The position numbers and the translations under genes were made by a program. From positions 1-35,015 of the forward strand of contig JAGWJT010000005.1 of the NCBI GenBank assembly GCA_028865615.1: a DNA stretch of 35,015 bases, in the 5' to 3' direction. Numbering within the stretch: position 1 is the first letter of the stretch; every line of letters begins with the position of its first letter. Positions 6,805 to 21,608 of this stretch are shown piece after piece. The notes below the pieces were generated by a model that saw only the letters and a program-made list of their open reading frames with translations, was not told where the DNA came from and ran no database searches. The DNA comes from Patescibacteria group bacterium (GTDB lineage Bacteria; Patescibacteriota; Minisyncoccia; Phycocordibacterales; PALSA-1337).

Positions 6805-7012
6805 GGAACCGAGCCGACAAAGCCTTCCTGACGCGCAACACCGGGCAAACATTCCGCCCAGCTCCAACACAAAGTGCTTTTGTGGTAAGCCAAGCAGGTG
6901 GTACCACGTTGCGTTGTCGCAAGACGGAACGTTTGTCCGGTGTTGCCATATATCGGCCCCACCTGCTGGCGGGGCCTGCGAAGTGTCAGTCAGGCCTTGT
7001 CGGCTCGGTTCC
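6805..7012. repeat. Nested inverted-repeat element (~208 bp), possible MITE-like or structured RNA element
   Basis: Outer arms 6805-6832/6985-7012 (28 nt, 3 mismatches). Inner arms 6835-6856/6925-6946 (22 nt, 2 mismatches). Hairpin GGCCCCACC-TGCT-GGCGGGGCC at 6955-6976. Confidence 0.8.
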
Positions 7013-12078: not shown

Positions 12079-12703
12079 AAGAGGAATTGGCGACATTGGT
12101 CGCCTTTTCTCTTCCCTCTTTGATCCACAGCGCGACGACTTCGATAGCTTTCTTGGCAACTTTCTTGAGTTCTTTGAGCTCGGCATCCTTGAACTTGCCG
12201 AGAATGAATCTTTCGATCTTGTCGTCGCCGTGCGGCACCTTGGCTATGCCTTTGGCGTCGGCGGCAGCTGTACCGATACGAAGCCTCGGAAAAGCCTCTG
12301 TCTTTACGGCTCTTATCACTGATTCCAAACCATTGTGACCGCCTGATGATTTGTTATATGAGATCTTCATGCGGCCCAGCGGCAATTGGAAATCGTCGTA
12401 TATCACCAATAGATCGTCGGCGATCTTGCCTTTGATGCCGCTCTTCGGCTTGGCGGCCTTGGTCTTGACGATAGACGCTACGGCCTTGCCGGAATTATTC
12501 ATGAATGTCTCGGGCGCCACCAGGAGCACCTTGCCTTTCCCTATCTTGGCCTCTGCAGTAAGGGCGTTGAGCTTGCCGTCGAAAACGAAATCGTCCTTGG
12601 AGCACTCCTTGCGTATGGCTTCCAAGATGATGCGTCCGCTATTGTGGCGCGTTCCCTCGTACTCTTCGCCCGGATTGCCCAAGCCGACGATGATGTATGA
12701 CAT
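12077..12703 (-). CDS. pth: Peptidyl-tRNA hydrolase
   Basis: YIIVGLGNPGEEYEGTRHNSGRIILEAI, LVAPETFMNNSGKAV, LLVIYDDFQLPLGRMKI, SGGHNGLESVI. Confidence 0.96.
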   Translation of the reverse strand: MSYIIVGLGNPGEEYEGTRHNSGRIILEAIRKECSKDDFVFDGKLNALTAEAKIGKGKVLLVAPETFMNNSGKAVASIVKTKAAKPKSGIKGKIADDLLVIYDDFQLPLGRMKISYNKSSGGHNGLESVIRAVKTEAFPRLRIGTAAADAKGIAKVPHGDDKIERFILGKFKDAELKELKKVAKKAIEVVALWIKEGREKATNVANSS

Positions 12704-12723
12704 AACAACAAACAGTATAGCAT

Positions 12724-12917
12724 GAACGGGAACCGAGGATATATCGATAGATCAAGATCGGGAACCAGGCAGACAATGTTCGAGGAACATTTCGCAGGAA
12801 TTTTCCAGCAGGAAAATTCCGAGACATAGGGCGAGCTCTGCAGAGCTCGACCCGTGTTCCGAGGGCATTGTCTGCCTGGTTCCTATTCATGAACAGGAAC
12901 ATTCCTGGTTCTCGTTC
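12724..12917. repeat. Second nested inverted-repeat element
   Basis: Perfect 18-bp arms GGAACCAGGCAGACAATG 12761-12778 / CATTGTCTGCCTGGTTCC 12866-12883. Inside: GGAATTTTCC-AGCA-GGAAAATTCC (12797-12820) and perfect palindrome CGAGCTCTGCAGAGCTCG (12832-12849). A weaker outermost pair is at 12724-12739/12902-12917. Confidence 0.8.
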
Positions 12918-12938
12918 TAGGAAACTTGTGTTCCATCC

Positions 12939-13556
12939 ATGTCCGTATTACAATACGCCATCATGCCGCCGGAATCGAGTCAAAAAGAGCATTCGTTCGG
13001 GCGATCCGTGTGGGAATGGGTCAAAGTCATAGCCATAGCCCTTATCGTAGCCTTGCCGATACGCTTCTTCATCGCCGAACCGTTCGTGGTGAACGGCGCC
13101 AGCATGGACCCGACTTTCGATACGGGCCAATTCCTGATCGTAGACAGATTGACTTACGATTTTGAGAAGCCGCAAAGAGGCGATGTCATAGTCTTCAAAT
13201 ACCCCGGCGACACGAGCATATATTACATAAAGCGCATCATCGGTCTGCCCGGCGAGACTGTGATCGTCAAAGACGGCCAGGTCGGCATAAAGGAGCCCGG
13301 CGCATCCGACACGATCCCTCTAGCACAGCCGTATGTGGATCAAGACCACGCCTCTCACGACAGCGGAGTGTATCCTCTCGGCAAGGGCCAATATTTCGTA
13401 ATGGGAGACAACAGAGCCCAGAGCTCTGATTCCAGAGCGTGGGGCCCGCTCAACGCTGATCTCATCGTCGGCAGGCCGATAGTCAGAATAACGCCTTTCA
13501 ACAAGCTCGGTATATTGCCGGGATCGTTCAATTACAATGAAGCATCCCCACAATAA
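12939..13556 (+). CDS. lepB: Signal peptidase I
   Basis: EPFVVNGASMDPTFDTGQFLIVDRLTYDFEKPQRGDVIVFKYP (Ser box), YYIKRIIGLPGETV (Lys box), YFVMGDNRAQSSDSRAWGPL. Confidence 0.96.
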   Translation: MSVLQYAIMPPESSQKEHSFGRSVWEWVKVIAIALIVALPIRFFIAEPFVVNGASMDPTFDTGQFLIVDRLTYDFEKPQRGDVIVFKYPGDTSIYYIKRIIGLPGETVIVKDGQVGIKEPGASDTIPLAQPYVDQDHASHDSGVYPLGKGQYFVMGDNRAQSSDSRAWGPLNADLIVGRPIVRITPFNKLGILPGSFNYNEASPQ

Positions 13557-18760: not shown

Positions 18761-19133
18761 AATCAGAGAATTCACAGACCTTTCGGTTTGGAAAGAGGGG
18801 CATAAACTAGTTTTAGAAACGTACAAAATCACTCGCAAATTTCCATAATGGGAATTATTCGGACTTGCCTCACAGATGCAACGAGCGGCCGTATCAATTA
18901 CGTCCAATATTGCCGAGGGATTCGGAAGACAAAGCTATAAAGAAAAGATACAATTCTATTATCTCTCACAGGGGTCACTTACCGAATACAAGAATCAATT
19001 GATTATTTCCAGGGACTTGAATTACATAAACTCAAAAGAATTTGATAGTATATACGAGCAATTAGTGATTACACATAAATTACTTCAGGGTTTAATAAGG
19101 AAATCAAAATCCTTCTTGAATCATGAATCTTGA
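18741..19133 (+). pseudogene. Four helix bundle protein (23S rRNA intervening sequence/S23-like) interrupted by in-frame TAA at 18846-18848
   Basis: MIQDSGRIREFTDLSVWKEGHKLVLETYKITRKFP*WELFGLASQMQRAAVSITSNIAEGFGRQSYKEKIQFYYLSQGSLTEYKNQLIISRDLNYINSKEFDSIYEQLVITHKLLQGLIRKSKSFLNHES; one frame throughout. Confidence 0.8.
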
Positions 19134-19143
19134 ATCATGAATC
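19112..19143. repeat. (GATTCAN)4-GAAG right arm in inverted orientation
   Basis: Reverse complement reads GATTCAT GATTCAA GATTCAT GATTCAA GAAG. Confidence 0.85.
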
Positions 19144-20096
19144 AACACACATACGACTTAGCCATCATAGGAGGCGGGCCCGCTGGAGCGGCGGCGGCGG
19201 TATACGCGGCCAGGAAACAGTTGCGCACCGTGGTCATCGCCAGAGACTGGCTCGGCCAGTCGAACGTATCAGAAAAGATTGAGAACTGGATAGGCACAGT
19301 CGCTATATCCGGCCTAGAATTGTCGCAAGCCCTCGAGAAGCACGCAAAAGCGTATGGCAAGGATATCATGGATTTCAAGGATGGAGAAAGCTGCATGAAG
19401 ATAGAAAGACTCAAGATTCAAGATTCAAGATTCAAGAATTCTGATGCATTCAAAGTCACGACTGACAAGGGTTCATATGAGGCCATGGCGGTGCTCATAA
19501 CTAGCGGCTCAAGCCGACGCAAGATGGACATTCCCGGCGCCGCGGAGTACGAGAACAAGGGTGTCACCTATTGTGCCACTTGCGACGGCCCTCTGTACAA
19601 TGGCCAAGACGTTGTCGTAGTCGGTGGAGGCAATGCCGGCTTTGAGGCGGCGGCCCAGCTCCTTGCCTACTGCAAAAGCGTTACCCTCATAGCTCGCAGT
19701 GAATTCAAGGCCGACCCTGGTACAGTCGAAGCTACACTCAAAAATCCCAAGATGAAAGCCGTGGAGTTCGCCGTGCCAAAAGAGATAAAAGGCGACAAAT
19801 TCGTCACTTCGCTAGTCTACACGGAGACAAAAACAGGCAAAGATACCGAAATTCCGGTGACCGGCATATTCGCCGAGATAGGCTCCATACCGAACAGCGG
19901 TTTTGCCAAGGGCATGGTTGAGACCGACAAGTTCGATCACATAGTCGCTGATCCCAGGAATCAGCGCGCATCTATCGACGGCATCTGGTCTGCGGGTGAT
20001 GTTACAGATGGTCTGTACCATCAAAACAATATAGCTGCCGGGGATGCTGTCAAAGCGATTGAGGATATCTACCTTTGGTTGCACAACAAGAAATAA
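19137..20096 (+). CDS. trxB: Thioredoxin reductase
   Basis: LAIIGGGPAGAAAAVYAAR, GVTYCATCDGPLY (CxxC), VVVVGGGNAGFEAAAQLL, GIWSAGDVTDGLYHQNNIAAGDAVKA. Confidence 0.92.
   Translation: MNQHTYDLAIIGGGPAGAAAAVYAARKQLRTVVIARDWLGQSNVSEKIENWIGTVAISGLELSQALEKHAKAYGKDIMDFKDGESCMKIERLKIQDSRFKNSDAFKVTTDKGSYEAMAVLITSGSSRRKMDIPGAAEYENKGVTYCATCDGPLYNGQDVVVVGGGNAGFEAAAQLLAYCKSVTLIARSEFKADPGTVEATLKNPKMKAVEFAVPKEIKGDKFVTSLVYTETKTGKDTEIPVTGIFAEIGSIPNSGFAKGMVETDKFDHIVADPRNQRASIDGIWSAGDVTDGLYHQNNIAAGDAVKAIEDIYLWLHNKK
19408..19441. repeat. GATTCAA heptamers inside the trxB coding sequence
   Basis: GACTCAA GATTCAA GATTCAA GATTCAA GAATTC, encoding LKIQDSRFKNS. Confidence 0.85.
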
Positions 20097-20753: not shown

Positions 20754-21515
20754 ATGAAAGAAACCCGCATCATAATGGGTATGCCCATAACTATGAACAT
20801 ACCAGCTGGGGACAGGCCGCTTCGACAGGCTGCAGTCAAAATAGCCGAAAAAGCTTTTGATCATTTCGTCAGCGTGGACAACAGATTCAGTACGTACAAA
20901 TATGACAGCGAGATGAGCCGCATCAACCGCGGCGAGCACGCCGAGGATGAGTGGAGCGACGAGATGAAAGAGATCATAAAGTTATGCGAAAATACCAAAA
21001 AAGACACCGATGGATATTTCGATATCGTCGATCGCCAAGGCAAACTGGATCCGTCAGGCATAGTCAAAGGTTGGGCTATCAGGAATGCGGCCGATATCAT
21101 CCGCAGTGCCGGCTTTGGTAACTTCCTGGTCGATGCCGGCGGCGATATCCAGGCAGTAGGCAAGAATGAGGACGGCCGGCCGTGGACAGTCGGCATCAGG
21201 GATCCATTCAAACAGGACGAAATAGTCAAGAAAGTAGTCCTGGACAATGCCGCTATAGCCACATCCGGCACATATATACGCGGTCAACATATATACGATC
21301 CCAAAGACAAAACCGCCGACATCACGGATATCGTCAGTCTGACCGTGGTCGGCGACGACATCTACGAAGCGGACCGTTTTGCCACCGCCGCTTTTGCCAT
21401 GGGCAAAGCCGGCATCGATCTCATCGAGAGATTGCCGGGCCTGGAAGGATATATGATCGACCGTGAAGGTATAGCCACGATGACAACGGGGTTTTATAAT
21501 TACGAGGCTCCGTGA
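20754..21515 (+). CDS. apbE: FAD:protein FMN transferase (ApbE family)
   Basis: MGMPITMNI, VDNRFSTYKYDSEMSRIN, DPSGIVKGWAIRNAADIIRSAGFGNFLVDAGGDIQAVG, AIATSGTYIRG. Confidence 0.92.
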   Translation: MKETRIIMGMPITMNIPAGDRPLRQAAVKIAEKAFDHFVSVDNRFSTYKYDSEMSRINRGEHAEDEWSDEMKEIIKLCENTKKDTDGYFDIVDRQGKLDPSGIVKGWAIRNAADIIRSAGFGNFLVDAGGDIQAVGKNEDGRPWTVGIRDPFKQDEIVKKVVLDNAAIATSGTYIRGQHIYDPKDKTADITDIVSLTVVGDDIYEADRFATAAFAMGKAGIDLIERLPGLEGYMIDREGIATMTTGFYNYEAP

Positions 21516-21608
21516 GCGAAGCGAGTTCGCGTTCTCGCAAGTTGCCGCATCTTTACACCACATGAGTGCTTCCGTCGCGTTGCGAGAACACGAACTCGCT
21601 TCGCTCAC
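21512..21608. repeat. 29-bp inverted repeat between apbE and the NqrB-like gene
   Basis: GTGAGCGAAGCGAGTTCGCGTTCTCGCAA (21512-21540) vs TTGCGAGAACACGAACTCGCTTCGCTCAC (21580-21608), one mismatch, 39-nt spacer; the left arm contains the apbE stop codon. Confidence 0.88.

Follow-up and report, generated by a model that had tools for sequence, protein, structure and literature searches.

The genes pth (minus strand) and lepB (plus strand) diverge from one another in the 35,015-nt stretch of contig JAGWJT010000005.1 analysed here, referred to as the window, which belongs to a Patescibacteria genome of 710,699 bp in 55 contigs (G000, with the window on C7). Among named genomes, the closest relatives of this lepB are found in Nomurabacteria/Taylorbacteria-type Patescibacteria. 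Between the two genes lies a nested hairpin, and a 123-bp unit of it is repeated genome-wide (Table 1). The unit consists, in order, of a 21-nt arm, GA, GGAACAT, TTCGCA, hairpin 1, GAGACATA, hairpin 2, GTGTTCC, GA and a second 21-nt arm. The region 12700-12945 has a folding energy of -113.6 kcal/mol as RNA, compared with -63.5 ± 4.6 kcal/mol for 200 dinucleotide shuffles (z -10.8), none of which equalled it, and the element has a fold z of -9.5 as DNA. A covariance model of the family scores this copy at 128.8 bits on the plus strand and 43.9 bits on the minus strand, and five of its six reading frames are free of stops. With up to one mismatch allowed, GGAACCNNNNNGACAA occurs four times in the window against 0.54 expected, a number reached by none of 100 shuffles. 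The first-pass annotation had described 18-bp arms, inner GGAACA/TGTTCC arms, a 10-bp hairpin and an 18-bp palindrome at this place, and all are present. It had the element span 12724-12917, which roughly equals the extra DNA that this locus has relative to its relatives, but the unit repeated in the genome is shorter, and matches to other copies extend over 12760-12891 at most.

Table 1. Features of the pth/lepB hairpin and its surroundings, and of the gyrA-side member, in window coordinates.
Feature	Position	Strand	Basis or remark
Repeated element, 123 bp	12761-12883	+	Genome-wide homologues, covariance model, fold; plus strand folds with G.T wobbles and GA/GA pairs
5' arm, GGAACCAGGCAGACAATGTTC	12761-12781	+	Distally copy-specific
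3' arm	12863-12883	+	Complementary to 5' arm; two G.T wobbles beside head
Perfect 18-bp arms, GGAACCAGGCAGACAATG	12761-12778 and 12866-12883		
GA of tandem GA/GA mismatch	12782-12783	+	Partner 12861-12862; GA/GA in 71 of 95 copies
GA of tandem GA/GA mismatch	12861-12862	+	Partner 12782-12783; GA/GA in 71 of 95 copies
Inner helix strand GGAACAT and junction TTCGCA	12784-12796	+	Conserved in alignments
Inner arms GGAACA/TGTTCC	12784-12789 and 12855-12860		
Hairpin 1, GGAATTTTCC-AGCA-GGAAAATTCC	12797-12820	+	10 bp, AGCA loop
Junction GAGACATA	12821-12828	+	GAGA.NTAG conserved across copies
Hairpin 2	12829-12853	+	10 bp, bulged A, TGCA loop; includes 18-bp palindrome
Perfect 18-bp palindrome, CGAGCTCTGCAGAGCTCG	12832-12849		Within hairpin 2
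Inner helix strand GTGTTCC	12854-12860	+	
Left outer flank, imperfect arm GAACGGGAACCGAGG	12724-12760	+	This locus only; genome matches, fold
Right outer flank, imperfect arm CCTGGTTCTCGTTC	12884-12917	+	This locus only; genome matches, fold
-10-like TATACT before pth	12714-12719	-	Putative; sequence and position compared with relatives
Promoter-like TTGTGT-N17-TACAAT before lepB	12926-12954	+	Putative; similar strings in relatives
gyrA-side family member, hairpin 2 replaced by ~110-nt hairpin	6805-7012	-	Fold z -11.7; head motifs at 6939-6989 and 6828-6834

Most of the genus shares the divergent pth/lepB arrangement. The gap between the two genes is 235 bp in this genome and 18-124 bp in 16 of the 17 relatives read, the remaining one having 922 bp; gaps were compared by length rather than base by base because the relatives are just 56-76% identical in lepB or pth. 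Among 30 loci of the genus, this genome is the only one with a copy in the gap, and a copy in another genome (G010) lies on the far side of pth. Promoter-like strings flank the insert, one on either side. Judged by these comparisons, the pth/lepB copy is a lineage-specific insertion between two putative promoters: it would have entered a short gap between divergent promoters in this lineage only, and may affect expression of pth and lepB. The listed lepB ORF, starting from ATG 12939, overlaps the promoter-like TACAAT (window 12939-12965). By its conservation with a relative (ATGCCGCC), ATG 12963 is probably the lepB start.

A BLAST search of the genome with the pth/lepB region finds about 20 places, the best other copy with an E-value of 5e-46. 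Combining BLAST and covariance-model searches gives at least 23 full-length copies in 0.71 Mb: 22 found by a first covariance model (R1, built from 13 copies) and the gyrA-side member, which the model misses because its hairpin 2 is replaced by the longer hairpin. Some contigs end within copies (L120 2451-2530, at the end of C19; L025 1-36 and L019 1-49, at the starts of C22 and C31), so the repeat breaks the assembly and copy number is underestimated. Within the genus R1 detects the element in 27 of 34 genomes, and among relatives in 33 of 147. When 384 genomes from across the class were sampled with a second model (R2, built from 71 copies), 60 of them, from 46 genera, gave matches at E ≤ 1e-4; copy numbers here are lower bounds, since few candidates were scored per genome. 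Copy number among relatives ranges from 0 to more than 20. Taylorbacteria (L036, L037), Lloydbacteria (L060) and Parcubacteria LiPW_30 (L067) are among the named genomes that a model matches.

In the full copies read, a head of ~80 nt is conserved, and the arms of ~18-25 nt vary, yet are complementary within each copy. The signature of the family is this three-way-junction head, with TTCGCA, AGCA/TGCA loops, GAGA..TAG and the tandem GA/GA mismatch; distant matches retain it as TCGCAG or TCGGAG, CGAG, AGCA-type loops and the bulged A. The gyrA-side element carries the head on the minus strand, as CTGACACTTCGCAGG..CCAGCAGG..GGCCGATATATG, which bears out the earlier proposal that it and the pth/lepB element belong to one family conserved in architecture more than in sequence; the reported match of their outer arms at 14 of 18 positions is also correct. 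The GGAACC(N5)GACAA ends that were taken as diagnostic fared differently: among the loci fetched, exact pairs are confined to the window's two copies and a single internally deleted hairpin on C25, and ~20 other copies bear different arms. The diagnostic part is the head, which had been treated as internal decoration.

Several variants of the standard copy were seen in passing. A short hairpin with GGAACCGAGCCGACAATG arms (L009 1431-1488, G000:C25:2634-2691) adjoins a full copy and looks like an internal deletion derivative, and solo arms occur on C31 and C35. In distant genomes (L353, L354, L355, L358, L369), copies often form inverted pairs 40-930 bp apart, sometimes bracketing one gene. Two such pairs (L369, L358) were considered as ends of autonomous elements and set aside, as the enclosed genes look ordinary by eye (DprA-like, nuclease-like). 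Several copies, such as L150 and L151 in two species of one genus, may be long-standing and vertically inherited.

No Rfam family matches the element at its gathering score, and relaxed E-values give chance-level matches only. Phage and plasmid records hold no match; a pattern match in a viral contig (L370) is a chance match within a long ORF and has no model match. A literature search covering few subscription papers and no preprints found no account of such elements in Patescibacteria, and because of this partial coverage we regard the family only provisionally as undescribed, as it appears to be.

The arms are where the copies differ, and how they differ is informative. Over the outer 15 pairs of the 13-copy alignment there are 72 double changes, no single-sided changes and four mismatches; 98% of cells are paired, and none of 500 shuffles did as well. 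Among 95 copies, positions 1-13 hold 48 mismatches and 29 G-U pairs in about 1200 cells, defects that look like the unselected single-mutation decay of perfect stems, for which we reason that a G-U share of one third to one half is expected. The positions beside the head behave in another manner. At positions 15-18, wobbles are polarised, with 49 T.G against 7 G.T in the 95 copies, and these wobbles and the tandem GA/GA mismatch look like retained features of the plus strand. Perfect pairs have replaced GA/GA in about nine copies; L116 (GA/TC) was converted from the 5' side, L117 (TT/AA) from the 3' side. Distal arms of different copies are identical at 6.2 of 13 positions, against 3.8 of 13 for shuffled arms, and the same distal arm is found with different heads and vice versa, so arms and heads reassort. 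Template switching in replication, when it acts within quasi-palindromes, produces conversions such as those of GA/GA, and perfect stems are known to arise and be mended in this way (PMC8794818). Double changes almost without G-U intermediates, together with neutral-looking defects, point to template-switch homogenisation as the likely source of arm complementarity, rather than selection for pairing.

Mapping places 67 of 93 copies outside long ORFs. Near these copies are 83 close gene ends, and 67 of those are 3' ends (p 1e-8); many copies sit 0-30 bp past stop codons. No strong orientation bias relative to neighbouring genes was found (40 against 27, p 0.14). About 21 copies are in frame within genes, which we named by eye from translations rather than by domain search: ligA, mnmA, comFC, folD, dnaE, infB, secA, recG and others. 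In MnmA, LigA and ComFC the same loops have been invaded in several species, and in MnmA in both orientations. Since ligA, mnmA, folD and comFC have one match each in this genome, the insert-bearing versions are apparently the working genes. The ligA product of this genome reads IARIGNPGA-(34 codons)-FPSTQ, compared with IARLGSGIA-FPPTQ in G026, which has no insert; ligA of G026 and the pth/lepB gap are two orthologous sites with presence and absence of the element between species. The ligA comparison, made across related species, showed no target-site duplication. In further species the invaded loops of mnmA, ligA and comFC hold other long inserts (L244, L251, L259, L265, L283, L329), some of them strongly foldable (e.g. 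L259, L283) and perhaps decayed copies or other hairpin families.

We favour, with a probability of about 0.7, the explanation that this is a family of non-autonomous, REP/RPE-like mobile palindromic elements whose arms are kept matching by template switching. Its observed basis is the dispersed family, the conserved head, the matching variable arms, the shorter element-free gaps in relatives and the in-frame copies. The transmissible conserved part would be the branched three-way-junction head, which would fold as single-stranded DNA or RNA on the plus strand and would probably be recognised by an enzyme acting in trans. Insertions would survive chiefly just past stop codons and in permissive protein loops. 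During or after insertion, template switching within the quasi-palindrome would make the arms complementary and keep them so, a change in one arm being copied into the other; arms could then vary freely between copies yet match within a copy.

Against this stands the strong 3'-end bias, which could also mean that the hairpins function at the 3' ends of genes. The copies would then be structured RNAs, terminators or mRNA stabilisers under selection, with arms that covary as the stem is needed, and the very strong covariation would also fit. We think this unlikely: copy number differs widely among close relatives, many copies lie inside genes, the window copy is upstream of both its neighbours, outer-arm mismatches are as frequent as neutral decay predicts and orientation bias is weak, while selection against harmful insertions would equally leave copies behind genes. 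The proximity to stop codons, where terminators lie, and the T runs that end some arms in AT-rich relatives (e.g. L138) would also suit a head that inserts into the loops of hairpins already in place, terminators for instance, and takes their stems as its arms. That origin is very unlikely, as the arms in the coding sequences of ligA, mnmA and folD are not terminators, the G026 ligA site has no ready-made long stem and the same distal arms appear at unrelated loci. Somewhat less doubtful than either is that the head inserts beside resident DNA, of which an inverted copy is made, leaving one arm old and one new. The ligA gain relative to G026, 34 codons or 102 nt for a 122-bp hairpin, is suggestive of one resident arm, and the arm on the 5' side of the gene aligns with resident sequence (IGNPGA / LGSGIA), with TTCCCG common to both on the 3' side; a similar picture is seen in ligA of G033, and the perfect arms without G-U intermediates also fit. 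Against it, comFC of G022 gains near the full hairpin length relative to typical homologues, distal arms recur at different loci above chance and the compared loops differ in length. We rate it as unlikely, and target copying of arms may act together with the template-switch mobile element that we prefer.

What would move such an element is a separate matter. Short palindromes behind and inside genes are typical of REPs (PMC3733652), and the genome has one Y1 transposase gene, which would suit a REP element mobilised by a RAYT. This gene is bounded by ends of its own, CCCCGCC..GGCGGGG, with no copy of the element adjoining, and Y1 transposases are absent from the copy-rich genomes G026 (99% complete, 9 copies), G024 (7 copies) and G010 (13 copies). 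Nor does the element have a short stem with a constant GTAG or CGTC foot; the junction holds an internal ATAG/GTAG/CGAG string that is not constant. A RAYT mobiliser was rejected on these grounds and is highly improbable, being already largely refuted. A reverse transcriptase as a necessary mobiliser is likewise not supported, as none is present in G026, G010, G013 or G019; among these four, G026 alone is nearly complete. The matching transposase that the first-pass annotation suggested looking for did not emerge, and the search, which covered Y1 transposases and reverse transcriptases, identified no mobilising enzyme. A recurring neighbour gene of ~490 aa was dismissed as a partner, because its recurrence is an artefact of the 1.5-kb locus edges and the genes differ. 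The Y1 transposase is of the IS200 type, with 145 aa (L031 1416-1960, on C16) and CCCCGCCCTTACAGGCGGGG hairpins on its flanks.

A close parallel is with the Rickettsia palindromic elements (RPEs), mobile-looking palindromic repeats of ~100-150 bp that occur, in small genomes, between genes and in frame within unrelated housekeeping genes, and for which coding of a conserved peptide has been described (PMC10969869). Compared by description rather than with RPE sequences, the element here differs in that in-gene copies use both orientations and several frames, so the encoded peptides differ, and in that the inner branched head is conserved while the arms vary; the phylum is also different. REP/BIME palindromes of the GTAG and CGTC superfamilies are, like it, mostly downstream of coding regions with some within genes, but they are 20-40 bp long, with stems of 5-13 bp and a tagged foot, and are mobilised in trans or, for the CGTC type, without a known enzyme (PMC3733652). 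The element here is ~120 bp with a three-way junction and long arms, and the Y1 transposase does not track it. It resembles MITEs in being short, non-autonomous and dispersed, with inverted ends, but a MITE has terminal repeats in common with its parent transposon and duplicates its target (PMC10969869), whereas here the ends are the variable part, no parent was found in the search for Y1 transposases and reverse transcriptases, and the cross-species ligA comparison showed no duplication. In hairpins generated by template switching, one arm is copied into the other and double changes arise without G-U intermediates (PMC8794818), as here; those cases concern RNA genes at fixed loci, and in this family switching would act on dispersed mobile copies, so the likeness is one of mechanism and not of family. 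Going by its sequence features, the element would work like RPEs or REPs while falling outside the tested definitions of both, with arms that appear to evolve in concert.

These copies appear to make up an undescribed mobile hairpin family, which extends over a large part of one class of ultra-small bacteria, whose genomes are very reduced. With roughly 100 copies, the family lets one follow how template switching makes and repairs perfect stems, and it cautions that covariation alone, very strong here, need not mean selection for RNA structure. Apparently single-copy housekeeping enzymes are lengthened by tens of residues where copies lie in frame in ligA, mnmA and folD. In some yeast mitochondria, in-gene copies of mobile bypass elements are removed or bypassed. 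A bolder and unlikely proposal is that the Patescibacteria family is class-wide, with a folded single-stranded head processed by an enzyme, arms built from or homogenised with local DNA, and in-gene copies removed or bypassed before or during translation; if true, such removal or bypass would explain how single-copy essential genes tolerate them.

The window holds two further repeats. A 29-bp inverted repeat that is 97% complementary (GTGAGCGAAGCGAG.., 21512-21608) lies in an ORF start region and is outside the hairpin family, and TTCTTGAATCATGAATC-like units form direct and inverted runs within 19108-19450, around 19113-19143 and 19408-19450.
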